A stretch of 64,000 bases of DNA, taken from the NCBI RefSeq assembly GCF_900128895.1, contig NZ_FSQW01000001.1:1488001-1552000 (forward strand), given 5' to 3'. A program made the position numbers and the translations under genes. The DNA comes from Parasphingorhabdus marina DSM 22363. GTDB lineage: Bacteria > Pseudomonadota > Alphaproteobacteria > Sphingomonadales > Sphingomonadaceae. This document shows, one piece after another, positions 12,687 through 60,710 of this stretch (positions are counted from its first letter, which is position 1; every line of letters begins with the position of its first letter). Below the pieces are notes generated by a model. It saw only the letters and a program-made list of their open reading frames with translations. It searched no databases and was not told the DNA's origin.

Positions 12687-12780
12687 GTTTGTTGTATCAG
12701 AGTGCTGCTCTCTACGATCTGACAGGTCTTCAACACCTGAGTTTACAGATCATGAACGTTCAGGGTAGCTGAAGGCGATA

Positions 12781-13365: not shown

Positions 13366-13404
13366 CTGTTTAGCGCTGCTGTCTCAGAGCGGCAGCATGA
13401 TGGA

Positions 13405-13470: not shown

Positions 13471-13512
13471 GGATCATAAGCTGGCCTTCCGCTAACGACC
13501 CAGGATCAGAAC

Positions 13513-15609: not shown

Positions 15610-15676
15610 AACAGGGGCGACACGATCGAGAAAACACAAACATCAGATATGAATGCTCTGATGAGGAGAGGATGAA

Positions 15677-39005: not shown

Positions 39006-39082
39006 TTGATCCTGCTCCGCATCTTTTTTTGGTCCTATTGCAGCCTTGCGCATTTTGCGCCGATAAGGCAGGAAAAGGCAAG

Positions 39083-45522: not shown

Positions 45523-45526
45523 CGCA

Positions 45527-46291: not shown

Positions 46292-46292
46292 T

Positions 46293-47621
46293 TCAGCCTT
46301 CCACGGGTTCGCGCGGCGTGGCGGCACCGGCATAGGGCACATTGCGCCCTCCGTAGCGTCGCACCCGAATATTGGCCTGCTCGCCATGACCGGCAAAGCC
46401 CTCCAGCGCGCAGAGCCGGCTGCAATACTCGCCCATCATTGTCGTCGCCTCATCGCTCAGCACCTTCTGATAGGTGCATGTTTTCAGGAACTTGCCCACC
46501 CAGAGACCGCCTGTATAGCGCGCGGCCTTTTTGGTCGGCAGGGTATGATTGGTGCCGATCACTTTGTCCCCATAGGCTACGTTGGTCCGCGGGCCAATGA
46601 ACAGCGCGCCGTAATTGGTCATGTTGTCGAGGAAATAGTCATCGTCACCGGTCATCACCTGGACATGTTCATTGGCATAGTCATTGGCCACTTCCAGCAT
46701 CTCGGCATGATCGGCGCAAAGGATGACCTCGCCAAAATTGTCCCAGGCCTGCCGGGCGATCTCCCGTGTCGGCAGGATGTCGAGCAGGCGCTCGACCTCC
46801 GCCATGGTATCACGGGCCAGCTTCTCGCTGTCGGTGATCATGATCGCCGGACTGTCGGGGCCATGTTCGGCCTGGCCCAGCAAATCGGTGGCGCAGATTT
46901 CGCCATCGACTGTTTCGTCCGCAATCACCATGGTTTCAGTTGGGCCTGCGAACAGATCGATGCCGACACGTCCGAACAGTTGCCGCTTGGCTTCCGCGAC
47001 AAAGGCGTTACCCGGTCCTACCAGCATATCTACCGGATCAATACTCTCCGTGCCGATAGCCATTGCACCCACGGCCTGAACCCCGCCCAGGGCATAGATC
47101 GCGTCAGCGCCTGCCATGGCTTGTGCGGCGACAATCGCCGGCGCGGGCCTGCCTTCAAAGGGTGGCGCACAGGTGATAACCCGCGGCACGCCCGCGACTT
47201 TTGCGGTGATGACGGACATATGGGCACTGGCGAGCAGCGGATATTTGCCTCCCGGAACATAGCAGCCAGCCGCGTTGACCGGGATGTTCCTGTGCCCGAG
47301 AATCACACCAGGCGTCGTTTCCACTTCGATGTCCTGAAGAGCTTTCCGCTGCTTCTCGGCAAAGCCTCGCACCTGTTTCTGGGCAAATTCGATATCATGG
47401 ATCGCCTGCTTGTCGAGGCTCTCGATGCACTGGTTGATCTCGTCATCGCTGAGCCGGTAATCGCTGCGATCCCAACCATCAAATTTGACAGACAGTTCTC
47501 GTACTGCTTCATCACCGCGCGACTCGATATCGTTCAAAATGCCCTCGACAATATCCCGAACCTTGCGATCCGCATCCGCTCTCACCTCTGCGGTAACTGC
47601 CCTTTTGAGCCAGGTGGCCAT
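46293..47621 (-). CDS. Histidinol-dehydrogenase-like alcohol dehydrogenase
   Basis: A 442-residue HisD-fold protein. ATG 47621 follows GGAGCAAACA. Family segments are '[34 protein letters not shown]', '[35 protein letters not shown]', '[17 protein letters not shown]' and '[30 protein letters not shown]'. The Zn and general-base residues of HisD are retained. The catabolic neighbourhood points to a non-biosynthetic member, as in the sulfopropanediol dehydrogenase HpsN group, oxidising an alcohol to an acid with two NAD+. First gene of a leftward operon behind operator site A. Confidence 0.82.
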
Positions 47622-47694
47622 TGTTTGCTCCTGCGTTGTTTGCGGCTGGCATATACAGCCTGTTCGTCGCATCACTTATTACAGCCTTGCAAAG

Positions 47695-47706
47695 TTGTAA
47701 ATACAA
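47695..47706. promoter_or_regulatory. GntR/HutC-type operator, site A
   Basis: TTGTAAATACAA (perfect TTGTA/TACAA arms) in the 119-bp gap between the divergent hisD-like and symporter genes. A degenerate second copy follows (AGTACAAGTTG, 47710-47720). Confidence 0.7.
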
Positions 47707-47740
47707 GTTAGTACAAGTTGAACGTTTCGGGGAGAGGGTG

Positions 47741-49348
47741 ATGCATAGCTTCGGGGTGCTGAACTGGACGATTGTTGTTTCGTTTCTGGTCGCCAACCTT
47801 GCTCTGGGCTATTTTCTCGGCCGCAAGGTCCAGTCCGCAAAGGACTATTATCTGGGCAGCCGGGAGACACCATGGTGGGCCATCGGAATCTCGGTCATTG
47901 CGACCTATGTCAGCGCGCTGTCCTTTCTTGGTGGCCCTGCCTGGGCCTATAGCGATGGCCTGTCTGCGCTGGCTATTCACCTCAATTATCCGCTGGTGAT
48001 ATTTGCCGTTATCACTCTGTTCCTGCCGTTTTTCTACAATAGCGGAGTGGCGTCGATCTATGAATATCAGGAACGACGGTTCGGCCCGACCTCGCGCTCT
48101 GTCATGTCACTGATCTTCCTGATTTCGCAGGCGCTGACAACCGCAGCGATACTCTATGCCACGGCCATAGTCCTGCAATTCGTTACCGGGATCGACGTGG
48201 TCTGGGCGATCATCATCATAACGATTATCGCTCTGATTTACACGGCCATGGGCGGGATGCTGGCGGTGATCTGGACCGATGTGTTTCAGGCCGTGGTTCT
48301 GTTCGTCGGAGCGATGGTCATCATGTTCACGCTGATCAACAATCTGCCGGTGCCGCTAGCCGAAGCGCTCGCGGGCCTGAAGGCTGAAGGCAAGCTGAGC
48401 GCCGTCGTCACCGACCCGGATATCACCAGGCCCACCACAATCTGGTCTGGCGTAATAGCCATGACCTTGTTTCACATAACGGTCTATGGTGCTAATCAGA
48501 TGATGGTCCAGCGGACTCTGGGAGCGAAGACGATCGGTGGTGCCAAAAAGGCCTATCTGCTGATGGGTTTCGCCGCTTTTCCGATCTACTTCCTGTTCTT
48601 TTTCGTCGGTGTGCTTTGCTACGCCTATTATGGCGGCAAGCCTTTTGAAAACGATAATGAAATCATCCTGTCATTCGCTACCGAAGCCAGCATCCCCGGC
48701 CTGATGGGAATATTGACAGCGGCTGTCCTCGCTGCATCCATGTCGACCCTCAGTTCAGCCTTCAACTCGCTAGCCACGGTCTCTATCGTGGATTTCTACA
48801 AGAAGTTCTCCGATGTACCCGAAGGGCAGGGGCACTATTTGAAAATGTCACGCTGGTTGACGATTTTCTGGGCGGTTGTGGTGATCATCCCGGCGATCAT
48901 GTATTCCAATACCGAAGGCTCGATCCTGGAAGTGCTGAGCAAGATCGGCAGTTTCTTCGTGGGAGCGAAGCTGGGCATGTATGCCTTGGGCTTCTTTTCG
49001 AAACATACGACCGAAAAAGGTCTGCTTGTGGGCGTTGCCGTTGGCTTTGTCATGGTCTGGTATGTGGCCAGCTATACCGACATTGCGTGGCCCTGGTATT
49101 GTGCAATAGGCGGTGGGACGAACATATTGGTATCGATCATTGCCAGTCTGATCTGGACTGGCCGCCAGAAGGACTGGTCGCCCTATTCCGTGGTCGGCCA
49201 GCGGCAGAAATTTGCTGCAAGCGGCGAGGCGATCGCGCAGGATGGCTGGTACCGGTTGCCGGGAATGGTGGACAGGGTCAGTTGGCTTTTGCTGTTATTC
49301 TTCGCAGCAAGCATAGCGGTCCTGTTGTTGCTCGAAGCGATCGTCTAG
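47741..49348 (+). CDS. Sodium:solute symporter (SSS family)
   Basis: A 535-residue transporter with about 13 membrane helices. ATG 47741 follows GGGGAGAGGGTG. Signature stretches are 'GRKVQSAKDYYLGSRETPWWAIGISVIATYVSALSFLGGPAWAY' (the SSS core with Na+-site helix 1) and 'AAVLAASMSTLSSAFNSLATVSIVDFYKKF' (helix 8, with the Ser/Thr of the Na2 site). Probably imports the cluster's substrate or an acid intermediate across the inner membrane. Tail-to-tail with the SnoaL-like gene, sharing CTAG for both stops. Confidence 0.9.
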   Translation: MHSFGVLNWTIVVSFLVANLALGYFLGRKVQSAKDYYLGSRETPWWAIGISVIATYVSALSFLGGPAWAYSDGLSALAIHLNYPLVIFAVITLFLPFFYNSGVASIYEYQERRFGPTSRSVMSLIFLISQALTTAAILYATAIVLQFVTGIDVVWAIIIITIIALIYTAMGGMLAVIWTDVFQAVVLFVGAMVIMFTLINNLPVPLAEALAGLKAEGKLSAVVTDPDITRPTTIWSGVIAMTLFHITVYGANQMMVQRTLGAKTIGGAKKAYLLMGFAAFPIYFLFFFVGVLCYAYYGGKPFENDNEIILSFATEASIPGLMGILTAAVLAASMSTLSSAFNSLATVSIVDFYKKFSDVPEGQGHYLKMSRWLTIFWAVVVIIPAIMYSNTEGSILEVLSKIGSFFVGAKLGMYALGFFSKHTTEKGLLVGVAVGFVMVWYVASYTDIAWPWYCAIGGGTNILVSIIASLIWTGRQKDWSPYSVVGQRQKFAASGEAIAQDGWYRLPGMVDRVSWLLLLFFAASIAVLLLLEAIV

Positions 49349-50361
49349 GAACCGCCAATCGGTTCCCGCATTAGTCCGAAAATATCGACATTCATCTGGG
49401 CAAGCAGGTCGATCATGTCTATATAGACCCAGTTTTCGCTGAGCAAATCGCCATCCCGCCGCCAGAAGTCCATCACCCGCATGCCGACACGATTGCCGGT
49501 GGCCGGGATCCCCAGAAATGTGTCACCGCTATGCGTCGCCTGAACGCTGGGCCAGCCGGTAGAAGCGCAATAGGTTCGCTCGGCAATCCGGCATTTGTGC
49601 AGCGCACCCTGCCGGTCAGGAAACGCGCCCAGAAACGGTTTGCCGTGCCCGCGTCGATAGTCTTCATAACCGCGCATGGTGCCGATACCGGCCGGGCCAT
49701 ACCAGGCCATATGCGGAGCCCAATAGTCCGGCATCCGCATCGATTCAAAATCCTGTCCGTCATAGGCAAGCAGCGCGTCGATCATCTCCTCGGTCAAGGT
49801 GAGTGTCCGATGCGCCTCTTCAGCGCTGCCTGATTCCAGAACAATTCCATTGCGGGTTGCGGGACCTGGCGAAACCAGTGGCCGGCCAAGACCCGGTCCG
49901 AGCGGCCAGATATCCGCTTGCATCATCATTCCCGGGAGGTCGAAAATCTCCCAGGTTTCCTTGATTCTGTCGCCGTCCCATCTCTCAAACCGTCCGAAAC
50001 GCAGCCAGGCCGGGCGGCCTGTTGCGGGAACGCCGAAAAGCGGCCCGGTCCAGAGTCCGGCATAGTGGCCGCAACAGGCTGTCCAGTCAGACCCCTTGAA
50101 AGATCCGGCAATCAATATGTCGAGCCGTTCTTCGACATGTTCCAGACTGGCTGACAGCGGTTGCAGCACAGTTTCGGTCAAGGCATCTCTGCCGTTGACA
50201 TCATTTACCGGCTGTGGGCCGTGCCAGACATGGTCCAGGTGGTGCAAGTTTGTCCTGCTGCTGTCCAGAATCAGACCGGCCTCAAATCTTGAGCGGCGCA
50301 GCCACTCCATACGGTCCTGGTCGGAGTCCTGACCGGGCATGTTCGAAAAATGCTCATTCAT
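49345..50361 (-). CDS. Two-domain SnoaL-like protein, 338 aa
   Basis: Two NTF2/SnoaL-like halves. The first ('NLHHLDHVWHGPQPVNDVNGRDALTETVLQPL...CGHYAGLWTGPLFGVPATGRPAWLRFGRFERWDGDRIKETWEIFDLPGMMMQ') and the second ('YWAPHMAWYGPAGIGTMRGYEDYRRGHGKPFLGAFPDR...SGDTFLGIPATGNRVGMRVMDFWRRDGDLLSENWVYIDMIDLLAQM') both carry the 'G.PATG' plus 'R..DFWR..G' pattern of SnoaL-like polyketide cyclases. It starts inside the ridA-like gene (8-bp overlap). Probably paralogous in design to the protein at 43526, though diverged. Confidence 0.78.
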   Translation of the reverse strand: MNEHFSNMPGQDSDQDRMEWLRRSRFEAGLILDSSRTNLHHLDHVWHGPQPVNDVNGRDALTETVLQPLSASLEHVEERLDILIAGSFKGSDWTACCGHYAGLWTGPLFGVPATGRPAWLRFGRFERWDGDRIKETWEIFDLPGMMMQADIWPLGPGLGRPLVSPGPATRNGIVLESGSAEEAHRTLTLTEEMIDALLAYDGQDFESMRMPDYWAPHMAWYGPAGIGTMRGYEDYRRGHGKPFLGAFPDRQGALHKCRIAERTYCASTGWPSVQATHSGDTFLGIPATGNRVGMRVMDFWRRDGDLLSENWVYIDMIDLLAQMNVDIFGLMREPIGGS

Positions 50362-50833
50362 GGAGGCGCATTACCGCATCAATCTCGACCGACTGGTTTT
50401 TGACCAAAGCCGTAACACCGATGGTTGACCGGGTATGGACCCCGGCAGGATCACCGAAGACTTCGAACAGGAGGTCAGATGCGCCGTTTATGACAGCGTT
50501 CATCGCATCAAAATCCGGATGGGAGTAAACATAGCCCTTGAGGTTGATAATCTCGGCAATCCGGTCGAGATCGCCAATTGCCCATTTGGCCGTCGCCAGC
50601 ATTTTCAGGGCCAGTGCCCTGGTGGTTTCATAGGCTTCTTCAGCGCTCACCCGATCCGGAACCCGTCCATGCCGCTTCACGCTGTCATCGTCCAAAAGGT
50701 CTGAGCCATGACCAGATATATATAGCGTAGTTCCAACCAGTTTTGCCGCGATCCTGTTCGGACTCGGCAAGACAAGCGGGGCTGGCAGGGACAAGCCCAG
50801 CTCAGTCAGCTTTGTTTCGACCCTCTCGGTCAT
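50354..50833 (-). CDS. RidA/YjgF-family enamine/imine deaminase-like protein
   Basis: A 159-residue RidA-fold protein of the longer YjgF subgroup: 'LVGTTLYISGHGSDLL', 'AYETTRALALKMLATAKWAIGDLDRIAEIINLKGYVYSHPDFDAMNAVINGASDLLFEVFG' and 'HTRSTIGVTALVKNQSVEIDAVMRL'. The Arg of 'TRSTIG' matches the conserved substrate-binding Arg. The role is likely clearing or hydrolysing an enamine/imine, implying nitrogen in the pathway. It heads the leftward pair and is divergent from the isochorismatase-like gene with operator site B between. Confidence 0.85.
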   Translation of the reverse strand: MTERVETKLTELGLSLPAPLVLPSPNRIAAKLVGTTLYISGHGSDLLDDDSVKRHGRVPDRVSAEEAYETTRALALKMLATAKWAIGDLDRIAEIINLKGYVYSHPDFDAMNAVINGASDLLFEVFGDPAGVHTRSTIGVTALVKNQSVEIDAVMRLHE

Positions 50834-50882
50834 TTTTGTCTCCGAATCCGTTCAGCGCGTCTTTTGCCCAAATTTTGCAAAC

Positions 50883-50894
50883 TTGACAATACAA
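50883..50894. promoter_or_regulatory. GntR/HutC-type operator, site B
   Basis: TTGACAATACAA, a one-mismatch relative of the TTGTAAATACAA palindrome, followed by a half-site TTATTGACAA (50896-50905). It lies in the 127-bp divergent gap between ridA-like and isochorismatase-like genes. Confidence 0.6.
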
Positions 50895-50960
50895 CTTATT
50901 GACAAGCCTTGCCATGCCTTCATAGTCTTTGGACAGGTATAGCAGAGAGAGGAGCAAACG

Positions 50961-51653
50961 ATGGAAATGCCGCATTATGTTGTTGACCGGGTAATGAAAA
51001 AGCGGGGCCGCAAACATGTATTTGATGCGTTTGATCCGAAGGTGACCGCGTTCATGGTGACCGACATGCAAAACGCCTTTGTCAAAGGCAAGGTCAAGGC
51101 CGACAGTGCCATCGCCATCATGCCCAACATCAACCTGCTGGCGCAAAAAATGCGCGAAATGGGTGGTCATGTGGCCTGGGTCCAGTTGCAGGCGGGTGAG
51201 ACCGACGGCAGCTCCGTAGCAGAATTGTACCATAAATATTTCTTCACACCCCAGGGTGCAGAAGCTCATCGCAGCAGCCTCACCCCAGGGGACTGGGGCT
51301 TTGAACTGTGTGAAGAACTGGACGTCCAGGAAGGTGACATCCGATCGGTCAAGACCCGCCACAGCGCGTTTGTTCCGGGCCACGGCGATCTGCACGAACA
51401 GTTACAGGCGCGCGGGATAGAAAATCTGCTGATCGGGGGTACGGTGACCAATTTCTGTTGCGAGACCTCGGCACGAGACGCGATGATGCTGGATTATCGT
51501 GTGATCATGGTTTCGGACTGTAATGCTGCCAGGTTTGAAGAAGATCATATGGCCGGTCTGACTACTGTCTTCCAGAGCTTTGGAGACGTTCGTAACGTGC
51601 AGGGGACGCTGGAACTGCTGAGCAAGGGTGTGGAGGTAGGCAACCAGCCCTGA
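50961..51653 (+). CDS. Isochorismatase-fold cysteine amidohydrolase
   Basis: A 230-residue protein with the complete Asp-Lys-Cys triad of the family: Asp35 in 'FMVTDMQNAF', Lys131 in 'RSVKTRHSAF' and Cys166 in 'GGTVTNFCCETSARDA'. Members hydrolyse C-N bonds (N-carbamoylsarcosine, ureidoacrylate, maleamate, nicotinamide); the 'SVKTRHSAF' and 'FCCETSARDAMMLDY' segments fit the amidase rather than isochorismate-vinyl-ether type. The ATG follows GAGAGAGGAGCAAACG. It starts a rightward pair with an alpha/beta hydrolase. An amide in the pathway is implied. Confidence 0.87.
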   Translation: MEMPHYVVDRVMKKRGRKHVFDAFDPKVTAFMVTDMQNAFVKGKVKADSAIAIMPNINLLAQKMREMGGHVAWVQLQAGETDGSSVAELYHKYFFTPQGAEAHRSSLTPGDWGFELCEELDVQEGDIRSVKTRHSAFVPGHGDLHEQLQARGIENLLIGGTVTNFCCETSARDAMMLDYRVIMVSDCNAARFEEDHMAGLTTVFQSFGDVRNVQGTLELLSKGVEVGNQP

Positions 51654-51669
51654 AATGCGCGGCAAGGCC

Positions 51670-52515
51670 ATGAATAGACGCCAGTTTTCAATCGGCATGA
51701 CGGGTCTGGGTTTGGGGCTTCTGCTGAATGGATGTCAAACTGCTCCCGGAGCGCGGAATTCAGACGGCGGGAGGCCATCCGATTCTCCTCTGCTGTTCAT
51801 TGCCGGAGCCTGGCATGGGGGCTGGTGCTGGAAGTTTGTGGCAGAGGAGATCCTCAAGAAACAGCCCTTCCGCCGGCTATATTCTCCGTCCCTTTTGGGA
51901 TTGGCCGACAAGTCAGATGCTCTGAGCAGCACGCTCGGGCTTCAGGACCAGATAGATGATATTGCAGCACTTATAGAACGGGAGAAGTTGCAGGATTTCA
52001 CTCTCGTTGGACACAGTTTCGGCGGGATGATCATCACCGCTCTGGCGCATCGGTTCAGCGATCGGATTCGGCACCTGGTGTATCTGGATGCTGTGATCCC
52101 TGAAGATGGTCAGTCATTTATTACTGCTGGGCAGAAGCTGTCACAACATCTTGTTGCCCAACGCGAAGCCGCTTTTCGAAGTTTGGCGACCGATGGTGTT
52201 GCGCTACCGCCACTTCCACCGTCAGCATTTGGAATCCCGAAAGATCATCCTGGCTACGATTGGGTTCAGGATCATCTTACTCCTCACCCTTTGAAGACCT
52301 GCCTGGACCCAATTTCGCTGGCAGATCAAACGACAGAACGAATCCCTAAATCATATATACGATGTACCGATCCGCTGCTGCAACAGCCGGCGATTGTCGC
52401 TGGATCAATGCGAGCCAAATCCGAGTTTGGATGGCGGTTTCTGGAACTTTCAACTGGTCATGATGCTATGATCACAGCACCGCAGGCGCTGGCCGAGATT
52501 TTGATAGATATGTAG
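51670..52515 (+). CDS. Exported alpha/beta hydrolase (Tat-type lipoprotein signal)
   Basis: A 281-residue alpha/beta hydrolase. ATG 51670 begins 'MNRRQFSIGMTGLGLGLLLNGC', an RR-motif signal followed by a lipobox Cys; ATG 51655 is an alternative. The hydrolase core shows 'LLFIAGAWHGGWCWKFVAEE' (oxyanion loop), Ser in 'FTLVGHSFGGMIITA', 'LVYLDAVIPEDGQS' and a C-terminal His in 'ELSTGHDAMITAPQ'. It resembles the plant methylesterase/salicylate-esterase-like group. It is 16 bp after the amidohydrolase, so co-transcribed, but acts outside the cytoplasm. Confidence 0.85.
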   Translation: MNRRQFSIGMTGLGLGLLLNGCQTAPGARNSDGGRPSDSPLLFIAGAWHGGWCWKFVAEEILKKQPFRRLYSPSLLGLADKSDALSSTLGLQDQIDDIAALIEREKLQDFTLVGHSFGGMIITALAHRFSDRIRHLVYLDAVIPEDGQSFITAGQKLSQHLVAQREAAFRSLATDGVALPPLPPSAFGIPKDHPGYDWVQDHLTPHPLKTCLDPISLADQTTERIPKSYIRCTDPLLQQPAIVAGSMRAKSEFGWRFLELSTGHDAMITAPQALAEILIDM

Positions 52516-52524
52516 CAGATGGCG

Positions 52525-52557
52525 AAAAGCCGGAGGGGGAGAACCCTCCGGCTTTTT
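52525..52557. terminator. Bidirectional intrinsic terminator
   Basis: A 9-bp GC stem GCCGGAGGG (52529-52537) / CCCTCCGGC (52544-52552) with a 6-nt loop, TTTTT on the right and AAAA on the left. It separates the convergent hydrolase and TonB-receptor genes and should stop both transcripts. Confidence 0.88.
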
Positions 52558-52582
52558 CCATCGTGACGAACGATGATTGCGA

Positions 52583-54853
52583 TCAGAACTTGAAGCCGGC
52601 GCGAACTCCGTAGGTACGAGGAGGTGCATAGTTCTGGAATATCGCGCCTTGTCCCCCGATCACACCAGCGTTCAAGACAGCCTCATCTTCCAGATTGCGT
52701 ACAAAGGCCTGCAGCATGAACCGTTCGCTGGCATCCATCCAAGTGAGCGAGGCATCTGTCTTGGTATAGCTGCCCTGCTTGCCAACGTCTCGTCCCTGAA
52801 TGCCGGCGTCATAGTTGAATTCATTCACGAAATAGCTGTCCGAGAAGAAGAACTGCACAGCAGGCGTTAGAGTGCCCGAACCACCCAGATCAAACTCGTA
52901 GCTTGCTCCGATTGATCCTGTAAATGTTGGTGAAATCGGTACTTCATTACCCGACAGATCAAGAAGATTCGTTGTTCCGGGCACAACGTCAAAGCCGGTG
53001 AACAAGCCATAACCGCTGGGAGCACTCGCCGTGAATGTCTGAAATTTCGCATTCAGGTAAGAGAAGTTGGCATCGACCTTGAACCCATTGTCGAAATCAT
53101 AGGCCAGTTCCAGTTCGGCACCATAGGCTCTGGATGACCCGCCATTGCTGCGTGCGACGACCAGTGATGGACCAACTTGAACAAACGTGTTTGACAGAAT
53201 GTCGTTCATGTCGTTGTAGAAAAACGAAATGTTTGCGACCCCTTGTCCATTTGCAAAAGTATTCTTGGAACCGATTTCATAAGCTGTGATGGTTTGCGGT
53301 CCATAGTTTGGCGTTGGGGCAAATTGGTTGTTGGCACCGCCGGAACGGAAGCCAGTCGATACGCTGGCATAGATCAGGTTGTCCGGAGTGGGAGTGAATT
53401 CCGCACCAACTTTCCACGTGAACTTGTCAAAAGAGTCAGAGGAATCTGAGTCGGGAGTCGCCTGGCTGGTCGGTGTCCGGAAACGGAAACGCTTGTCATC
53501 AACAGTGTAACGTCCGCCCACCGTAATTTTGAACTGCTCACCAAAAGCGTAGTCGCCCTGGGCGAATACCGCATAGCTGTCCGTATCCACTTCCTGCAGG
53601 AAGGTGAACGCACCGCCACTGACTTCGTTGAGAAAAATGAAATCCTCCGAGCCATTTTCACTAAAATAATATCCCCCAACAACCCAGGTGAATGGACCAC
53701 CATGGTCGGAAACCAACTGGAATTCCTGACTAATTGTTTCGGAATCCGTGTCGAGGGTCAGTATCGAACCTTGTGCGGAGTCGCTGAAATCCTCGTCGCC
53801 AATTCGCACAGCCTGAAAATCCGACCAGGCCGAAATTGACCTGAGAATTACACCACCAAGCTCCAGATTAACTTCCATATTCGCCGTGGTTTCTTCTATG
53901 TCACGGTCCAGGTCGGTGTTCCGATAGACGTTGTAAGGATCAACATCCGAAGGCCCCGGGAACGAGCGTGTCCGCGGGTTGGTCCGGTTCAAAGTGCCGC
54001 CAACATCGAGATTTCCGGCAGCGTCCTGAAGCGTCCCGACAGTTGTATACCCGAAACCACCGGCGCCGAAGCCTTCCTGATCCCAATGGCTGACGCGCAC
54101 GATTATCTCGCCGACATCAAAATCATGACGGAAACTGCCCCGGACATATATCTGGTCGTTGTCGTTAAAGTCTTGCGCGGTGTTTGCCGCCGGATCTCTT
54201 GACGGCAGAACGTTCACATAACCATCGCTCTCCTGATAGACGCCGACGACGCGAAACGCCGTATTGTCGCCTACGGGAACATTTACAATACCTTCGAGCC
54301 GCAGGTCATTGAAATTGCCATAGGTCACATTGCCTTCTGCGCCAAAATCAAACTGTGGCTTTTTGGAAATCGCGCCAATACTGCCACCATAGGTGTTTCG
54401 GCCATAGAGAGTGCCCTGTGGGCCCCGAAGCACTTCCACGCGTTCAAGATCCACAAATGCGGCCAAGGCCTGACTGGTGCGAGCCTTGTATACGCCATCC
54501 ACAAAGAATCCGATTGTCGGATCATTGAACAGGTCGACTTCGACGGTTCGCACACCACGCACGGATGGCCGGGCATCTGAGCCGGACTTACTGATACTCA
54601 ACCCGGGCACGGCTGCATCGAGCTTGGTTACATCGCTGATACCTTTTGAAACAAGCTCGTCACCGCCGATCGCCGTGATGGAAATCGGAACTTCCTGCAC
54701 ATTTTCTTCACGCTTCTGGGCCGTAACAATGATGACATTGCCATCTTCAGCCGACTCCTCGGTCTGTGCCTGCGCCACCCCGCTAAAACCGGTGGCCAGT
54801 GCCAGTCCGGTCGTTGCCATTAACACCCGTTTCGAGAAGTTTCCTGTCATCAT
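52583..54853 (-). CDS. TonB-dependent receptor (no STN domain)
   Basis: A 756-residue outer-membrane receptor from ATG 54853, preceded by AAAGGGATGGATA. The signal peptide ends 'GVAQAQT', followed by the TonB-box-like 'NVIIVTAQKREENVQEVPISI' typical of sphingomonad/Caulobacter catabolic receptors. The plug has 'LERVEVLRGPQGTLYGRNTYGGSIG' and the barrel ends 'YGVRAGFKF'. It lacks the STN domain of the receptor at 8522, so it is not a FecR signaller. Given the operator (site C) upstream, it likely imports the substrate of this cluster. Confidence 0.92.
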   Translation of the reverse strand: MMTGNFSKRVLMATTGLALATGFSGVAQAQTEESAEDGNVIIVTAQKREENVQEVPISITAIGGDELVSKGISDVTKLDAAVPGLSISKSGSDARPSVRGVRTVEVDLFNDPTIGFFVDGVYKARTSQALAAFVDLERVEVLRGPQGTLYGRNTYGGSIGAISKKPQFDFGAEGNVTYGNFNDLRLEGIVNVPVGDNTAFRVVGVYQESDGYVNVLPSRDPAANTAQDFNDNDQIYVRGSFRHDFDVGEIIVRVSHWDQEGFGAGGFGYTTVGTLQDAAGNLDVGGTLNRTNPRTRSFPGPSDVDPYNVYRNTDLDRDIEETTANMEVNLELGGVILRSISAWSDFQAVRIGDEDFSDSAQGSILTLDTDSETISQEFQLVSDHGGPFTWVVGGYYFSENGSEDFIFLNEVSGGAFTFLQEVDTDSYAVFAQGDYAFGEQFKITVGGRYTVDDKRFRFRTPTSQATPDSDSSDSFDKFTWKVGAEFTPTPDNLIYASVSTGFRSGGANNQFAPTPNYGPQTITAYEIGSKNTFANGQGVANISFFYNDMNDILSNTFVQVGPSLVVARSNGGSSRAYGAELELAYDFDNGFKVDANFSYLNAKFQTFTASAPSGYGLFTGFDVVPGTTNLLDLSGNEVPISPTFTGSIGASYEFDLGGSGTLTPAVQFFFSDSYFVNEFNYDAGIQGRDVGKQGSYTKTDASLTWMDASERFMLQAFVRNLEDEAVLNAGVIGGQGAIFQNYAPPRTYGVRAGFKF

Positions 54854-54913
54854 TATCCATCCCTTTCCCAATTGGACCCAAATTTGCATATTTGTTACAA
54901 GCTATAAGCAATG

Positions 54914-54925
54914 TTGGCAATACAA
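54914..54925. promoter_or_regulatory. GntR/HutC-type operator, site C
   Basis: TTGGCAATACAA (complement TTGTATTGCCAA), with a further palindrome TTGTTACAA at 54892-54900, between purU and the TonB receptor and about 60 bp upstream of the receptor's start. Confidence 0.6.
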
Positions 54926-54965
54926 CTTTGCATTCTGGGCCCAAACTGTGGCCAATCAGCAACTA

Positions 54966-55823
54966 TCATGTAAAGACAACCGTCTTGCTGCCATTCAAGA
55001 TCACGCGATCATCAAGCAGGTAAGTGACAGCTCGAGACAGGACGCGTTGTTCGATCCCCCGGCCTTTTCTGACCAGGTCTTCCGGCGAGTCACTGTGTGA
55101 AACATGTTCGACATCCTGGGTGATAATCGGACCTTCATCGAGGTCCGAAGTGACGAAATGAGCGGTCGCACCGATCATTTTGACGCCTCGTCGATGGGCC
55201 TGATGATAAGGCCTGGCACCTTTGAAGCCGGGCAGGAAGCTGTGGTGGATATTGACGCAGCGACCCGCCAGTCGGCCCGCAAGATCATCCGACAGGATCT
55301 GCATGTAGCGCGCAAGCACAGCCAGTTCTGCGCCGGTGTGTTCAAATATCTCCCAAATCCGGGCTTCCTGCTGTGGTTTCGTTTCCGGTGTGACCGGCAG
55401 ATGGTGAAACGGAATATCCCCGACCGTGGTCAGGTTGAGACTTGATTGGGGATGATTGGAGATGATGCCAACCACATCCATCTGCAATTCTCCGATCCGC
55501 ATCCGGTATAGCAGGTCACCCAGACAGTGATCGAATTTTGATACAAACATCAGAACCTTTTTTGGCTGGCCTTTGGCGCTGATGCTCCAGTCCATATGAT
55601 ATTTGTCCGCAAGATCCTGAAACTGCTGTTCTGTTGCTTTGGGGCCTGCGGAATCTGGCTCGGAATACTCCACCCGCATGAAAAACCGGTTGGTCTCGGG
55701 ATCGCGGAATTGCTGGGCTGACAGGATATTGGCTTCGGTATTGAATAGAAACCCGGAGACGGCGGCCACAATTCCGGGCTGGTCATAGCAGGAAAATTTC
55801 AGGATTCCGGACTGTTCTCCCAT
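54966..55823 (-). CDS. purU: Formyltetrahydrofolate deformylase
   Basis: A 285-residue PurU. An N-terminal ACT domain (residues 6-80, 'LKFSCYDQPGIVAAVSGFLFNTEANIL') precedes a formyltransferase-fold catalytic domain with 'NIHHSFLPGFKGARPYHQAHRRGVKMIGATAHFVTSDLDEGPII', which carries the Asn/His/Asp catalytic set. It hydrolyses 10-formyl-THF to formate and THF. It is the third gene after the LigM-like demethylase and the MetF-like reductase, where it would release the oxidised methyl carbon and recycle THF. Confidence 0.92.
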   Translation of the reverse strand: MGEQSGILKFSCYDQPGIVAAVSGFLFNTEANILSAQQFRDPETNRFFMRVEYSEPDSAGPKATEQQFQDLADKYHMDWSISAKGQPKKVLMFVSKFDHCLGDLLYRMRIGELQMDVVGIISNHPQSSLNLTTVGDIPFHHLPVTPETKPQQEARIWEIFEHTGAELAVLARYMQILSDDLAGRLAGRCVNIHHSFLPGFKGARPYHQAHRRGVKMIGATAHFVTSDLDEGPIITQDVEHVSHSDSPEDLVRKGRGIEQRVLSRAVTYLLDDRVILNGSKTVVFT

Positions 55824-55835
55824 ATCGTGCGCTCT

Positions 55836-56711
55836 TCAGCTTCCTCTGCCCAATTGCTTTTCGGCCCAGTCAATGGTGCCGCTCAGCGATGCGAAGGTGA
55901 AGAAATGAACGCCCGTGATATCAAGGAGGGCATTCCTGCGATTCTGCTCAGCGATATTCCTGAGCAGTGTCGCCGGTGTCTGTGTTTTGAGGAGACCGCG
56001 CGTAATTTTCCTCTGCTTTTTGAGTGCCTTCAATGAAGGGCCAACTCCGCAGATCGCCGCATATTTGAGCAGGGTTGGAGTCTTGGCCGGTCCGGCGATT
56101 CCGACCCGGATTTTGGACGTGACGCCTTTCGATCGCAGTGCCGCGAGATAACCGCAAATGGCGTCCGCATCAAAACACAGCTGGGTGATAAGGCGGAGGT
56201 CAATGCCCCCTCTGCTGGCCGTATCGATTTTCTCGAATAGCGCTGTTTCAAGGATGTCATCCGCAATTGCGGGATGGCCCTCCGGATAACAACCCACGGC
56301 TACTCTTTTGATTCCATGATCTTCCAGTATGCCGCTTTTCAGCAGCTGCAGGCTCGAATGATAGTCGCCCACCGGCCGGTCACGATCGCCGCCCAGTATC
56401 AGCGCCCGATCAACGCCTGCATAGCGGGACAGATCGTAGATAATTTTCTCAAACGACCGCCGATCCGGGATATTTCGCGCGACAATATGTGGTACCGGCT
56501 GGAGCCCGAGTTCCTTGAGCATGCGCGCAACATCCAGTTGCGATTCCGGTGTATCTCTGGGCAGGGATGCGACATAGACTGGAGCATTCGCCGGCATCAT
56601 TTTTGCCGCGGTATCGAGTGACCGGCGATCCGGTGTTGTAACCTCTGCAGAATAGCCCTCGAGCAGGTCCCGAACGGCCTCGCTCGCAACGGGACTGCCC
56701 ATGGCAGTCAC
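55836..56711 (-). CDS. Methylenetetrahydrofolate reductase-like protein (MetF family)
   Basis: A 291-residue MetF-fold TIM barrel: 'EVTTPDRRSLDTAAKMMPANAPVYVASLPRDTPESQLDVARMLKELGLQPVPHIVARNIPD', 'YAGVDRALILGGDRDRPVGDY', 'GCYPEGHP' and 'TQLCFDADAICGYLAALRSKGVTSKIRVGIAGPA'. These match the FAD- and folate-binding strands; the sequence is more diverged than housekeeping MetF. Placed 1 bp after the LigM-like gene and 12 bp before purU, it most likely oxidises methyl-THF to methylene-THF. A start at 56702 is also possible. Confidence 0.82.
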   Translation of the reverse strand: MTAMGSPVASEAVRDLLEGYSAEVTTPDRRSLDTAAKMMPANAPVYVASLPRDTPESQLDVARMLKELGLQPVPHIVARNIPDRRSFEKIIYDLSRYAGVDRALILGGDRDRPVGDYHSSLQLLKSGILEDHGIKRVAVGCYPEGHPAIADDILETALFEKIDTASRGGIDLRLITQLCFDADAICGYLAALRSKGVTSKIRVGIAGPAKTPTLLKYAAICGVGPSLKALKKQRKITRGLLKTQTPATLLRNIAEQNRRNALLDITGVHFFTFASLSGTIDWAEKQLGRGS

Positions 56712-56712
56712 C

Positions 56713-58086
56713 TCAGGCAGCCCATTTCTTGTAGGTTACGCGCGCTTCGGTCGAGATGGGACAATCGGTTACAGTTGCACGGATTTCTGTCTGCACATGT
56801 CGTTCGACTACAGGCTTGGCGCTACCACCGTCGGGTTCTCCCCACAGCACATACAACTCTTTGCCGGCCTCGGCGACTTCCGGATCCAGCAGGCACAGGG
56901 AAATCCAGCGCCGGAAATTCGATGAGTAAACAGGATAGCAGCTGATGCCGACCTGCCGGCCGCCGTGCATGACCGCATCATAGGGATAGGTCGCATAATG
57001 CGATGCCGGCATGTCCATGAACTTGTAGCGATCCCCCTCATTGAACAGCGAGGAGAAAACCCGGACCACGTCTTCGGGCTCCCAGATCAGGGTCATCTTG
57101 CGCTTGTGATCGCGGCTGTCTTTCATTTCTTCGAGCGCCTTGCGACCGATGAAATCATGGTCAAACTTGACGATGTGCGAATAGCCCAGATCAAAGGGTG
57201 TCAAATAATAATCCTCGACATTGTCCGAGACCATGCTTCCACCGAGCGAGCTGTTCGCTTCGAACCCGTTGGCAGGAAGCCATTCGCGGTATTCCTTCAT
57301 CGATTCACCAGAGTAAATAGCGGGCAACTCGGACGGCACCCAGCCCGACTCATGCGCCACAGTCGAATAGGTTTTGGATCCGGCAAGCAACATGCCGTGA
57401 TCTTTTCCGGCTTCGATGATCGCGTTGCGGATCAGGTCATAATCGCCATAGGGACCGAAAAGCTCAAGGCCGGGTGCGCCCGCCATGCCGTGACGCAAGG
57501 CGCGCACCTTGCGGCCGGCAATGTTGATTTCGCCCATCCCGAAAAATTTGAATCCGGTGATCGGCCCGCCATTGAGTTGCTCCAGGATCGCCCAGGCATT
57601 GGGCCCCTGCACCTCGAAGCGATAGCCTTTGCGAGGCTGGTCGCTGTCCAGACTGCGTTCGTCCTTGTGGACAACGACATCATAGCCTTTGGTTTCGGCA
57701 TGAAACTGGACCCAGTTCCCGGCATTGGGCCGGTTGACGATGTTGATCTTCTCGTCCTCTAGTCCGAACAGAATGGAATTGCCGATCATGTAACCGTCTT
57801 CATTGCAAACGACGATCTGCTTAGCCTTGTCCTTGCCGAACGTCTTGAAACTGTTGGCTCCCAGGTCGGTGAGCAGACGTTTGACGTCCGGTCCTTCCAT
57901 GTAATGATCGGTCATGTGATAGGACTGATCAAACAGCACGGCCGTCTTGCGAAAGGCTTCCTGCTCGTCCCGCCAGTTGGAAAATTCGCTCTTGATCGGA
58001 AACTGGTAGGGTCCGCCTTCTGCGTTGCGCAGCATGTCCACCGGACTGTCATAATTTTTCAGCTTGTCTTCAAGCGATTGAGCCAT
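56713..58086 (-). CDS. Tetrahydrofolate-dependent O-demethylase, LigM/DesA (GcvT-fold) family
   Basis: A 457-residue GcvT-fold protein from ATG 58086 (ACAGGAAAA upstream). 'FSNWRDEQEAFRKTAVLFDQSYHMTD', 'RALRHGMAGAPGLELFGPYGDYD', 'ESGWVPSELPAIYSGESMKEYREWLPANGFEAN' and 'NVEDYYLTPFDLGYSHIVKFDHDFIGRKALE' are close to the vanillate/3-O-methylgallate demethylase LigM and syringate demethylase DesA. The candidate active-site residues His57 and Tyr240 align, from memory, with LigM His60 and Tyr247. Such enzymes move an aryl-O-methyl group to THF. First gene of the operon with the MetF-like gene and purU, behind the perfect operator site D. The exact substrate is unknown. Confidence 0.85.
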   Translation of the reverse strand: MAQSLEDKLKNYDSPVDMLRNAEGGPYQFPIKSEFSNWRDEQEAFRKTAVLFDQSYHMTDHYMEGPDVKRLLTDLGANSFKTFGKDKAKQIVVCNEDGYMIGNSILFGLEDEKINIVNRPNAGNWVQFHAETKGYDVVVHKDERSLDSDQPRKGYRFEVQGPNAWAILEQLNGGPITGFKFFGMGEINIAGRKVRALRHGMAGAPGLELFGPYGDYDLIRNAIIEAGKDHGMLLAGSKTYSTVAHESGWVPSELPAIYSGESMKEYREWLPANGFEANSSLGGSMVSDNVEDYYLTPFDLGYSHIVKFDHDFIGRKALEEMKDSRDHKRKMTLIWEPEDVVRVFSSLFNEGDRYKFMDMPASHYATYPYDAVMHGGRQVGISCYPVYSSNFRRWISLCLLDPEVAEAGKELYVLWGEPDGGSAKPVVERHVQTEIRATVTDCPISTEARVTYKKWAA

Positions 58087-58165
58087 TTTTCCTGTTCCCT
58101 CATCCATGCCTGCTCCGAACGCGAAGTCACGGATCAGGTCGAGTTCAAAAATTTCAGTGGAGGAA

Positions 58166-58179
58166 GTTGTAAATACAAC
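58166..58179. promoter_or_regulatory. GntR/HutC-type operator, site D
   Basis: GTTGTAAATACAAC, perfect 6-bp arms around AA, 80 bp upstream of the demethylase start and just past the gntR stop. It is the best copy of the motif in the window. Confidence 0.75.
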
Positions 58180-58242
58180 TTTATCAGGACGCAAGAATTT
58201 TCTGTCAGCCAGCCATGTGGCAGGCTGCTGGGTGAAAGAGAG

Positions 58243-59013
58243 TTAAAACTGTGCGGCGGCGTTGTAGCTGCTGGTGAGGTTGAATCGTGAACCGGCGAAG
58301 GTAAATCTGGACAACGTAACAACTCGCCCATCAACGCGATTCCGCCGTTCAAGATGCAGGCATGGGTCACCGCTCCCCAAGCCCAGTCTCTGACAGGTCA
58401 GCGGATAGGGCATGATCGCGCTGAGAGTGGTTTCCAGCTGGCCGAGCTCGGTGCGCCGGGAAAAATAGTCGTAGAGACTTTCCTGGCTGAAATCCTTTTC
58501 CAGAAAATTGGGAAACACATCACAGCGTGCATATCGGTCTTCTATCGCGATTGGCGTATCGCCATTTCGTTGGAGCAAGACGGCCTCAAACACTGGTTCC
58601 CCGTCATCAAGTTCCAGCAGATCACAGACCTTCTTTTCCGGAACAAGCTGGCGCTGAATCAGCACATCGGTATGCGGCTCACCGCCCTGGAGTTCGATTT
58701 CCCTAGCCAGGTCCTGCACCTCAAACAGTGAAAAACCTTTGGGTTTGGGCGCAACAAAAGTCCCAGACCCTTGCACACGGGTCAACCGCCCCTCAGTAAC
58801 CAGTTCGCGTACGGCGCGCTGGACGGTCAATCGCGAGACGTCAAAGCGTTTGGCGAGCGCATTCTCCGATTCCGCCTTGTCACCGGTAGACAACTGGCCG
58901 GACCGTATCTGGTCCAGCAGGTGATTTTTGATTACGAGGTAGCGTGGCAGGCCTTCGGTTGCACCGCCCAGGATCTCGTCATCGGTGATATCAGCTGTTT
59001 TTGTATTCCCCAT
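58243..59013 (-). CDS. GntR-family (HutC subfamily) transcriptional regulator
   Basis: A 256-residue protein. The winged helix 'YLVIKNHLLDQIRSGQLSTGDKAESENALAKRFDVSRLTVQRAVRELVTEGRLTRVQGSGTFVAP' is followed by a UTRA effector domain ('LAREIELQGGEPHTDVLIQRQLVPEKKVCDLLELDDGEPVFEAVLLQRNGDTPIAIEDRYARCDVFPNFL...YPLTCQRLGLGSGDPCLHLERRNRVDGRVV'). I use ATG 59013; ATG 59034 would leave 1 bp to operator site E. HutC-type regulators are usually repressors lifted by a pathway metabolite, at sites like TTGTATATACAA. Sites A-E make it the probable master regulator of the right-hand cluster, including itself. Confidence 0.88.
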   Translation of the reverse strand: MGNTKTADITDDEILGGATEGLPRYLVIKNHLLDQIRSGQLSTGDKAESENALAKRFDVSRLTVQRAVRELVTEGRLTRVQGSGTFVAPKPKGFSLFEVQDLAREIELQGGEPHTDVLIQRQLVPEKKVCDLLELDDGEPVFEAVLLQRNGDTPIAIEDRYARCDVFPNFLEKDFSQESLYDYFSRRTELGQLETTLSAIMPYPLTCQRLGLGSGDPCLHLERRNRVDGRVVTLSRFTFAGSRFNLTSSYNAAAQF

Positions 59014-59035
59014 CCGAGGCCCATAGCATAGCAAC

Positions 59036-59078
59036 TTGTATTGTCAAACAAGACAAATTTCCATAGTTGTAAATACAA
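59036..59078. promoter_or_regulatory. GntR/HutC-type operator, double site E
   Basis: TTGTATTGTCAA (59036-59047) and TTGTAAATACAA (59067-59078), 31 bp apart, in the 87-bp divergent gap between gntR and the gene at 59101. They cover both starts closely, so autorepression and repression of the rightward pair are expected. Confidence 0.7.
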
Positions 59079-59100
59079 GATAACCGATTAATATATCAGC

Positions 59101-59643
59101 ATGCCGCATTTGCTTTATCGACCACATATTGAACATGGTGACAAAATCGTCACGACGGATTTCCTGATCCGCCAGATCACCGTTCGCGGACGCGCGGACG
59201 TCAATTTGCCGGTTGATCTGGCAAATTGCCATGTGGATCTGGTCATGCATGACCGCAGCTTTGTGGCACCGCTGCTCTTTGCATTCAGCGGAGACGAGCA
59301 AACATATGTCGCGCCGGCCTTCGGCCTGCTCGATGGTGCCGTGTTTGACGCAGACCGCGCCGCTGCGTGGCGGAACGCGAGAATTTCGATCTCCCGCCAG
59401 GCAATAAAACCCGTTGGCGACTCGATCAGATGCCTCTCGCAGTTCCCGGACGAGTCCGGAAGCGACAAGGAAGTTGATTCCGCGGTCATCAAAGGTACTG
59501 CGCGATATCACGCCCTGATCCTTCCAGCGGGTGAGGCAACCCGGGTATCAGAAGCGGGTATGGTGCAATTGACCGTAACCGCTGGTCCCACCGCAGAACA
59601 TCGTCTGGCAATTGCCAGCAGCGGACAGGAAATTTTATCATGA
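59101..59643 (+). CDS. Unknown 180-aa cytoplasmic protein
   Basis: Not recognised. The ATG at 59101 lies only 22 bp from operator E, with no strong ribosome site. The protein is beta-rich and has no signal or membrane segment. Stretches such as 'FLIRQITVRGRADVNLPVDLANCHVDLVMHDRSFVAPLLFAF' and 'RYHALILPAGEATRVSEAGMVQLTVTAG' suggest a beta-sandwich or cupin-like fold. It overlaps the Asp-box propeller gene by 4 bp (ATGA), so the two are made together. It could be an accessory or enzyme subunit specific to this pathway. Confidence 0.65.
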   Translation: MPHLLYRPHIEHGDKIVTTDFLIRQITVRGRADVNLPVDLANCHVDLVMHDRSFVAPLLFAFSGDEQTYVAPAFGLLDGAVFDADRAAAWRNARISISRQAIKPVGDSIRCLSQFPDESGSDKEVDSAVIKGTARYHALILPAGEATRVSEAGMVQLTVTAGPTAEHRLAIASSGQEILS

Positions 59644-60710
59644 ATGGCAACGATCAGACAACAAACATGCTCTATGCCGCCAGCGTTGGGCATTCCGGCT
59701 GGTTCAGTCGCGACCTGGGTGAAAGCTGGCAACGGGCCAATACCCATACGGGCGGGGTCTACAATGAAAGCCGGACCTGGTGCCTGTCGGTGCATCCGGA
59801 CCGTCCCGGCGAGGTGCTGGCGGGCACCGATGACGGTGTCTATCGCTGGATGGAAACAGAAAAGCGCTGGAACCATGTGCCTTCACCGATGGACGGGCTG
59901 CATATTCTCAAAATCGCGCAGTCGCCCTTCAATCCCGACTTTATCATTGCCGGAACGCGGCCTGCTGAACTCTATCGGTCCCGCGATAATGGAAGATCCT
60001 GGGAAAGGCTGACTTTTGCCAACCATATCGAAGCACCATTTATCAACACCAACCGCGTGACTTCGGTCAAATATGATCCTGTGCATCCCGAGCAGATCTG
60101 GGTGACGATAGAAATTGACGGCCTGTGGCGGTCAAGGGATGGCGGTGACAACTGGGAACGCATCGGTCTCGATCTGCCGGATCAGGACCTGCACAATGTC
60201 GAATTTGCCGATTTCGAGCATGAGCGCTGGATACTTGTTGCCACGGAAGTCGGGCTTTTTCGCAGCCGGGATGATGGCGGCAATTTTCATAAAATCGATA
60301 TTCCCGATTTGCCCTATCATTATTTCCGCTGCCTTACGCGAAGGCCGGACCAAACGGGCGTAATGTTCCTGTCGATCGGGGACCGGCCTTCCGGTGACGA
60401 CAGCATGTTGTTGCGTACCCGCGACAATGGCGAAACCTGGGAAGCGGTGGATTTGCCGGGTAATCAGAATACGACGATCTGGCACATATCGGGCAATGCC
60501 GCGGATCCGATGCTGCTTTTTGCGATTTCGATATTCGGAGAAGTCTATCGGTCGACTGATGGTGGAGAGACTTGGGACAAGCCGGCAAAATTTCTGGGAG
60601 AAGCAAGGGAAATAGTCTGGGCACCGGTCCCAAATGACATGCTTGGTGAACAGAAAAAAGCGTGGGTCACGGCTGACGAGTTTCTTGAAAAAGGCGAGGA
60701 CGCCTTTTAA
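59640..60710 (+). CDS. Six-bladed Asp-box (BNR/sialidase-like) propeller, no signal peptide
   Basis: A 356-residue protein with six Asp-box motifs of the S/T-x-D-x-G-x-x-W/F type: 'SRDLGESW', 'SRDNGRSW', 'SRDGGDNW', 'SRDDGGNF', 'TRDNGETW' and 'STDGGETW'. This is a VPS10/sialidase-like beta-propeller, but the N-terminus (MNGNDQTTNMLYAAS) has no signal peptide, so it is probably cytoplasmic, unlike most such proteins. The sialidase Arg triad is not recognisable, so a lactonase-, hydrolase- or scaffold-like role is as likely. It is tail-to-tail with the FAD oxidoreductase; both stops use the same TTAA. Confidence 0.8.
   Translation: MNGNDQTTNMLYAASVGHSGWFSRDLGESWQRANTHTGGVYNESRTWCLSVHPDRPGEVLAGTDDGVYRWMETEKRWNHVPSPMDGLHILKIAQSPFNPDFIIAGTRPAELYRSRDNGRSWERLTFANHIEAPFINTNRVTSVKYDPVHPEQIWVTIEIDGLWRSRDGGDNWERIGLDLPDQDLHNVEFADFEHERWILVATEVGLFRSRDDGGNFHKIDIPDLPYHYFRCLTRRPDQTGVMFLSIGDRPSGDDSMLLRTRDNGETWEAVDLPGNQNTTIWHISGNAADPMLLFAISIFGEVYRSTDGGETWDKPAKFLGEAREIVWAPVPNDMLGEQKKAWVTADEFLEKGEDAF

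Follow-up and report, generated by a model that had tools for sequence, protein, structure and literature searches.

The described systems that come closest to the locus analyzed here, a catabolic gene cluster of Parasphingorhabdus marina DSM 22363 in which a 20-bp palindromic operator accompanies a gene for a HutC-subfamily GntR regulator (gntR), are HutC regulons, the NagR/DasR repressors, and the systems that control O-demethylation in other bacteria. The locus was found in a stretch of 64,000 nucleotides, termed the window in this work; sites beyond its end, in stretch L009 of the same genome, are given as window-equivalent positions. Pseudomonas HutC binds TGTA-N2-TACA, which agrees with the statement of an earlier, sequence-only reading of this DNA that HutC-family proteins bind such sites, and a second, unlike motif has also been reported (PMC12977541). 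Most sites of the HutC subfamily are reported to have GT-N4-AC spacing, and sites paired at the center of the divergent region of a regulator gene form a described class that was read as joint control (PMC4494728). The NagR palindrome shares this spacing, and in NagR Arg48 reads G-4 and Arg38 reads G-5 (PMC4333415).

The cluster resembles the HutC regulons, both of Pseudomonas hut operons and of a genome of the same order (G259), in that a regulator with the same winged helix and UTRA domain goes together with TTGTA-N2-TACAA in promoter regions. It differs in that no hut genes (hutU, hutH, hutI, hutF, or hutG) were recognized among the genes scanned around the regulator, in that the regulator stays below the HutC equivalog cutoff, and in that the targets form an O-demethylase/4-oxalomesaconate cluster. 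The NagR/DasR repressors have the same domain architecture, and the regulator aligns to DasR and YvoA/NagR chains, but where Arg38 of NagR contacts G-5, this protein has the Asn of an SEN motif and the base is T, an equivalence judged by the motif only. Regarding the targets, Sphingobium sp. SYK-6 controls its ligM-metF-ligH operon through the MarR regulator DesR, and ligJABC and ligKUI through LigR (PMC6888825). The same kinds of targets, namely, ligM-metF for DesR and ligJ, ligK, and ligU for LigR, are found here, but DesR is a MarR family member with 15-bp inverted repeats such as GTTTGTGTCACATAC (PMC6888825), unlike the predicted HutC-type GntR. SYK-6 thus uses two regulators, whereas here one set of sites and one predicted HutC-type GntR appear to cover both parts, and SYK-6 is described as having desB and ligAB, whereas this genome is without a PF02900 match. 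GntR-superfamily control of O-demethylation, as predicted here, is also known for VanR, which is an FCD-type GntR. VanR repressors target the vanAB vanillate demethylase genes (PMC6888825), whereas this cluster combines a UTRA-type regulator with a tetrahydrofolate-dependent demethylase relative.

It is very likely that the local HutC-subfamily GntR, a predicted repressor, controls the cluster through the 20-bp palindrome. The operator regulon as such is well supported, the predicted assignment of the operators to this GntR is strongly indicated, and repression with release by an effector would follow the pattern of the subfamily. The sequence-only reading had proposed that a single operator and a single HutC-type GntR define one catabolic regulon, and genome scans, a footprint in two relatives, co-occurrence, and the residues of the recognition helix support this proposal. 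The observation itself holds more strongly than stated there, and the regulon is wider, extending from ~37 kb within the window to past its end.

Operator sites and their distribution in the genome

The six sites described earlier, at 47695 (S1), 50883 (S2), 54914 (S3), 58167 (S4), 59036 (S5, minus strand), and 59067 (S6), were all found within one base of the positions given then (Table 1). They had been termed one- or two-mismatch relatives, which does not apply to 50883, with 3 mismatches to the 14-mer GTTGTAAATACAAC, or to 59036, with more than 3. A perfect TTGTA-N2-TACAA core is present at 47695, 58167, and 59067; in each of the other three, one half-site is altered, to TTGACAATACAA at 50883 and 59036 and to TTGGCAATACAA at 54914, and these three share TTG[AG]CAATACAA, which occurs nowhere else in this genome. 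Further sites are found in the window at 39083 (S0) and past its end at 66384 (L009:2885) and 68460 (L009:4961). The GT-N4-AC core is complete at the three perfect sites and at the two past the window end, and only a single half of it is present at 50883, 54914, and 59036. Alignment of eight own sites gave the 20-bp palindrome consensus AAAGTTGTAAATACAACTTT, in which the TTG and CAA arms are invariant.

With likely gene starts, all six noted sites are intergenic, as had been claimed; with the longest open reading frames (ORFs), however, 47695 and 58167 fall inside the symporter and ligM-like ORFs, which start at upstream TTG codons. The center of S1 is 79.5 bp from the hisD-like ATG and 40.5 bp from the symporter ATG, that of S2 55.5 bp from ridA and 72.5 bp from rutB, that of S4 86.5 bp from the ligM-like ATG (58086), and that of S0 83.5 bp from the ligK-like ATG. 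S3 is centered 30.5 bp from the longest TonB ORF and ~67 bp from the ATG ahead of a signal-peptide-like stretch; a weaker site nearby (54968, score 12.3), inside the end of purU, was left uncounted. S2 abuts a TTGACA -35-like hexamer at 50899, with a -10-like hexamer 16 bases further, although the promoter-like matches in its region (5) do not exceed those in shuffles (6.8). The centers of S5 and S6 are 31 bp apart and placed symmetrically, each at 28.5 bp from the nearer and 59.5 bp from the farther of the gntR and 59101 ATGs, and this pair fits the "common double site" divergon class of PMC4494728. The 66384 site lies between an aldehyde dehydrogenase (ALDH)-short-chain dehydrogenase (SDR) unit, read toward the aconitase X and CrtO-like genes, and an HbpS-like/aromatic-acid MFS pair, and the 68460 site is flanked by a tautomerase gene and a GPH symporter.

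When as many as 3 mismatches are allowed, GTTGTAAATACAAC has 11 strand matches at 8 places in the window, compared with 2.1 +/- 1.4 in shuffles (maximum, 6). In the complete genome (G000; 3,547,928 bases, 100% complete, with contigs C1 and C2), TTGNNAATACAA has 7 matches, all of which fall in C2:1535695-1556471 (20.8 kb), and the reversed-pattern control has 0. These matches are the six noted sites and one past the window end; an eighth, with one mismatch, also belongs to the regulon, and 39083 is a probable ninth. The 16-mer AGTTGTAAATACAACT with up to 2 mismatches occurs at 6 distinct places, all in C2:1527081-1556473 and with S0 among them, and exactly 3 mismatches give 5 more places, 2 inside the cluster and 3 outside. 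All 4 exact copies of TTGTAAATACAA are in the cluster, and its one-mismatch copies are found in the cluster (1) and on C1 (3). A whole-genome scan had been suggested earlier, with frequent and random placement of the motif as the outcome that would speak against an operator; instead, the strong matches are confined to the cluster. Chance, or a genome-wide scatter of strong matches, was rejected on the basis of the window shuffles and of these cluster-restricted matches.

Conservation of the operator in two relatives

Two genomes from two other families of the same order, G229 and G247, carry the cluster. A symmetric 20-bp matrix that was trained on the eight own sites only, excluding 39083, identified 14 sites with a score of at least 15 on their cluster contigs, versus 0.10 as the sum of the means from 100 shuffles of each piece. 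Four of them are on L029 (G229:C47), 1 is on L050 (G229:C212), and 6 and 3 are on L030 and L031 (G247:C102), respectively. L029, L030, and L031 were picked via the regulator orthologue and L050 via its match to the model described below; since C47 and C102 were thus chosen by the regulator and only C212 by the site, 13 of the 14 sites are free of selection by site.

The same promoters carry these sites, as those upstream of the ligM-like, ALDH, TonB receptor, and rutB-like units are present in all three genomes. The ligM-like site is at 8739 in G229, where it also adjoins the gntR stop, and at L031:1339 in G247. The rutB-like gene of G247 lies behind a Rieske gene, and the site precedes this Rieske-rutB unit. 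CrtO-like genes are preceded by sites in both relatives, and G247 has sites between gntR and the homologue of the 59101 gene, between the ligU and ligJ homologues (score 15.6), and, as an extra one, upstream of ridA (score 13.4). In the relatives, several sites run into an ORF if its longest form is taken, but not if the likely start is used.

A model that uses the sequence only was searched through whole genomes at E <= 10, with 150 first-look candidates scored per genome. In the own genome, it matched 7 distinct places, each of them a training site in the cluster. All 4 matches in G229 were on the two cluster contigs, and all 3 in G247 were on C102. The regulator relative in G284 (39% identity) is encoded on a 5.2-kb contig with no other window homologue and no matrix score above 6.5.

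The regulator and competing explanations

The regulator is composed of an N-terminal GntR winged helix and a C-terminal UTRA domain (residues 116 to 251 of the 263-amino-acid ORF). Its best named family is HutC (TIGR02018), at 196.0 bits and below the cutoff of 220, and the orthologues of G229 and G247, with 211.8 and 212.8 bits, are likewise below it. The gene had been called the only GntR gene of the window, which holds for HutC-like relatives: at E <= 1e-25 the genome has a single one, in a search limited to this subfamily and with a scan that covered part of the window ORFs. Among the ORFs that were compared or scanned, no other regulator was recognized in all three clusters.

Across 396 genomes of the order (at most 6 candidates per genome scored), E <= 1e-42 was reached by the own gene and by genes in G229 (57% identity), G247 (51%), G259 (35%), and G284. 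The orthologue, at >50% identity, is found in the same 3 of the 396 genomes as the CrtO-like protein of the cluster (>55% identity; at most 3 candidates per genome scored), and regulator and cluster thus co-occur. A CrtO-like match in G467 (45%) has no site within its 1.5-kb flanks. Of 32 genomes of the genus, only the own one has the regulator at E <= 1e-25, and same-genus footprinting gave nothing; its absence from the other 31 suggests that it was acquired by transfer or was lost repeatedly. Among 199 genomes of the family, 12 pass E <= 1e-30, the 11 besides the own one with matches of 32 to 36% identity, and no extra orthologue at E <= 1e-50 came from the 4 genomes of the G247 family or the single genome of the G229 family. 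All 1,546 matching plasmid records are below 60% identity, and a genome contig scan gave one weak partial match.

The DNA-binding domains of the three orthologues have SEN and SRLTVQRA in common, and the predicted recognition residues are HutC-like. The first of the two NagR arginines appears to be kept and the second replaced by the Asn of SEN, which would fit the G-4 and T-5 of the operator. The G259 gene sits within hutF-hutC-hutU-hutH-hutG, and its product scores 276 bits with TIGR02018. Just upstream of this hutF (L032:8342) lies TTGTATATACAA, which scores 25.4 with the window-trained matrix and is indistinguishable by the matrix from the cluster operators. The UTRA domains of the three orthologues contain ERRN, compared with ERKSW and ERRTW in two HutC-like proteins. 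By its context, the regulator of the cluster is not a histidine regulator.

A number of results weigh against the regulon as drawn here. Genome-wide, loose AGTTGTAAATACAACT matches are fewer than those of the reversed control (14 versus 21 strand matches), loose TTGTAAATACAA matches number 8 versus 7, and TTGTN4ACAA and control counts are 43/43 in G229, 18/13 in G247, 28/54 in G259, and 25/52 in G284. In the same vein, TTGNNAATACAA with 2 mismatches was found 33 times versus 40 expected in the window and 10 times versus 14 in L009. Since the loose totals are not above the controls, the evidence lies in the clustering of the best matches and not in the number of matches. Outside the cluster, the places with three mismatches have scores of 6.8, 13.9, and 17.2, and only the last, the intergenic place C1:573296 (L005/L041), is a possible outlying site; it lies outside ORFs of at least 150 codons and has the best off-cluster score among the places examined. 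Two places past the regulon, L009:8138 (11.8) and 15702 (11.0), precede genes by chance and were left uncounted. Within the cluster, S5 is the weakest site, S0 overlaps the ATG of the DUF1932 dehydrogenase gene, and neither is among the model matches, even though S5 had served for training; these matches also miss 1 of the 5 sites of G229 and 6 of the 9 of G247. The comparison genomes give model places too (1 in G089, 0 in G153, and 2 in G230), and the limited numbers of candidates scored per genome in the model, regulator, and CrtO-like searches count on the same side.

The altered half-sites at 50883, 54914, and 59036, the score of only 11.3 for 59036 when left out of training, the position of 39083 across a coding-sequence start, and the missing model matches of these last two sites would agree with a smaller regulon, in which function is limited to the strong palindromes at 47695, 58167, and 59067 and at the two places past the window end, and 39083 and the asymmetric sites would be decayed or due to chance. 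This is unlikely, however, because the sequence shared by the three asymmetric sites is unique to them in the genome, because both relatives have sites at the TonB and rutB-like units, and because the ligU/ligJ region of G247 has the site mentioned above. A/T-rich palindromes are used by many families of factors, and the operator might therefore be real but bound by a factor encoded elsewhere, with gntR as merely another target. The HutC-type GT-N4-AC spacing of the core and its match to the sequence ahead of a hut operon of the same order argue against such a factor, as do the place of gntR as the sole regulator recognized in the three clusters, its co-occurrence with the cluster, and the lack of a second HutC-like gene at E <= 1e-25 in this genome; we consider this explanation quite improbable. 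It is more improbable still that the GntR acts as an ordinary HutC, with a response to urocanate or histidine, and controls the cluster only incidentally: HutC is indeed its nearest named family (196 to 213 bits), but all three orthologues miss the cutoff that the hut operon protein of G259 passes, the scan of genes in the own cluster recognized no hut gene, and the UTRA motif differs from that of the two HutC-like proteins.

Target genes, pathway, and substrate

According to the regulon favored here, GntR would bind about nine sites, from 39083 to 68460, and would repress rather than activate the genes behind them. Repression would concern uptake (the TonB receptor and the SSS, aromatic-acid MFS, and GPH carriers), O-demethylation and one-carbon handling (LigM-like, MetF-like, and PurU), oxidation and dehydration steps (ALDH, SDR, aconitase X, CrtO-like, and HisD-like), RidA and RutB-like hydrolysis, the lower route from 4-oxalomesaconate to pyruvate (LigU, LigJ, and LigK), and, via the paired site, gntR itself. 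The substrate or an early intermediate would bind to the UTRA domain and lift repression. Judged by gene order, the CrtO-like, aconitase X, SDR, and ALDH genes probably form one operon that is read from the operator at 66384.

Table 1. Operator sites, regulator, and cluster genes in the window (percentages are identities to the homologues in G229 and G247; scores of S1 to S6 are leave-one-out matrix scores)
Feature	Position	Strand	Evidence or context
LigU/GalD-type 4-oxalomesaconate tautomerase	37277..38338	-	NF033377 531 bits, cutoff 440
LigK-type 4-carboxy-4-hydroxy-2-oxoadipate aldolase	38331..39005	-	TIGR02798 405 bits, cutoff 304.5
S0 operator (probable), AAAGTTGTAAAGACATCTTG	39079..39098	-	Matrix score 23.3, left out of training
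DUF1932/6-phosphogluconate-dehydrogenase-like protein	39083..39883	+	
LigJ-type 4-oxalomesaconate hydratase	39874..40899	+	E 1e-192 to solved 4-oxalomesaconate hydratase 6dwv
HisD-like dehydrogenase	46293..47621	-	TIGR00069 452 bits
S1 operator	47691..47710	+	119-bp divergent region hisD-like(-)/SSS symporter(+); 29.3
SSS-family sodium/solute symporter	47741..49348	+	TIGR00813
RidA/YjgF-like protein	50354..50833	-	PF14588, PF01042
S2 operator	50879..50898	+	ridA-like(-)/rutB-like(+) divergent region; 24.7
RutB-like isochorismatase-fold cysteine hydrolase	50961..51653	+	75% (G247), 69% (G229)
TonB-dependent receptor	52583..54889 (longest ORF)	-	Start more likely 54853, before signal-peptide-like stretch
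S3 operator	54910..54929	+	Upstream of TonB-dependent receptor gene only; 21.3
PurU formyltetrahydrofolate deformylase	54966..55823	-	TIGR00655 333 bits
MetF-like methylenetetrahydrofolate reductase	55836..56711	-	TIGR00676 44.8 bits, below cutoff 293.7
LigM/DesA-like tetrahydrofolate-dependent O-demethylase relative	56713..58086	-	76% (G229), 77% (G247)
S4 operator	58163..58182	+	Between likely LigM/DesA-like ATG (58086) and gntR stop; 26.9
GntR/HutC-subfamily regulator (proposed repressor)	58243..59013	-	PF00392 1.5e-15; PF07702 8.2e-29
S5 operator	59032..59051	-	gntR-proximal half of pair, 87-bp gntR/59101 divergent region; 11.3
S6 operator	59063..59082	+	59101-proximal half of pair; 23.4
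180-amino-acid protein, divergent from gntR	59101..59643	+	Uncharacterized
BNR/Sortilin-like beta-propeller protein	59640..60710	+	65% (G247), 46% (G229)
CrtO/phytoene-desaturase-like FAD oxidoreductase	60707..62281	-	76% (G229), 67% (G247)
Two-gene aconitase X	62284..63977	-	Small, 62284-62706, PF01989; large, 62703-63977, PF04412

The LigM-like protein matches solved LigM with 471 bits. With the LigM family NF047885 (cutoff, 580), it scores 555.4 bits, compared with 561.8 and 591.1 for its homologues in G229 and G247, and with the DesA family NF047633 (cutoff, 800), the three proteins score 596.8, 596.5, and 619.3 bits and are all below the cutoff. The protein encoded at 59101 has no Pfam (E <= 1e-4) or NCBIfam (E <= 1e-3) match, and a 28% homologue in G247 is also divergent from gntR. 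The only solved relative of the CrtO-like protein at E <= 1e-10 is the phytoene dehydrogenase 4dgk; G247 holds a second copy (58%), the two loci being L031:6262-7953 and 12239-13816. Aconitase X is split into two genes, for the large and the swivel subunit, within the catabolic operon, and its large subunit has 69% (G247) and 73% (G229) identity to its homologues.

LigU, LigJ, and LigK of the lower 4-oxalomesaconate pathway are all present. However, a LigB-type dioxygenase (PF02900, E <= 0.001) was not found in the own genome, in a search that gave matches in 4 of 14 control genomes; other dioxygenase families were not searched genome-wide. G229 (90% complete) has no such match, and G247 has one, on another contig. 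The regulon probably serves a methoxylated compound, presumably a ring compound, that ends in the 4-oxalomesaconate route, and a single substrate is plausible. A plain syringate, vanillate, or gallate reading is weakened by the lack of a PF02900 match and by an O-demethylase that falls short of the DesA cutoff.

SnoaL-like, cupin, and SDR genes follow hisD at 43526-46396 of the window; no solved structure related to the cupin protein was found at E <= 0.001, and this protein could be a candidate for ring cleavage. Rieske oxygenase and P450 genes are found on both sides of the cluster, at L009:8177-13550, together with TetR and MFS genes, and at 14359-17215 of the window. Neither region has a site scoring at least 13, and a weak one (11.8) precedes the Rieske gene of L009.

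Gadusol and mycosporines, the ultraviolet screens of algae and cyanobacteria, provide a speculative alternative to lignin aromatics. The regulon might degrade such a methoxylated alicyclic compound without aromatic ring cleavage, which we regard as improbable. By chemical reasoning only, RidA and the RutB-like hydrolase would remove an imine or amide; the HisD-like, SDR, and ALDH enzymes would oxidize CH2OH; and the LigM-like protein would remove the methyl ether. The product of these steps would be a seven-carbon skeleton that bears a tertiary alcohol. If its ring were opened beside the former methoxy carbon, 4-carboxy-4-hydroxy-2-oxoadipate, the substrate of LigK, would result. Such a route would account for LigK in the absence of a LigB-type dioxygenase, but it leaves no obvious need for LigU and LigJ. 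No title among the best-ranked literature matches concerns a bacterial degradation pathway of this type.

Among the best-ranked literature matches, from a coverage that leaves out most subscription literature, no title or abstract opening describes a regulon like the one proposed here. It is a regulon of a known type; what is less ordinary about it is that HutC specificity appears redirected and that the ring-cleavage enzyme is missing. About 30 kb of loosely annotated catabolic genes are brought together under a predicted repressor and a 20-bp operator, as one regulon whose targets are conserved across three families. DNA specificity of the HutC type would have been reused for a different pathway, and it is a small puzzle that LigU, LigJ, and LigK occur although no LigB-type dioxygenase was detected in this genome. 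A regulon defined in this way makes screening for the effector and the substrate direct, and, if the predicted binding is true, the operator pair would be usable as a sensor for a compound of the pathway.

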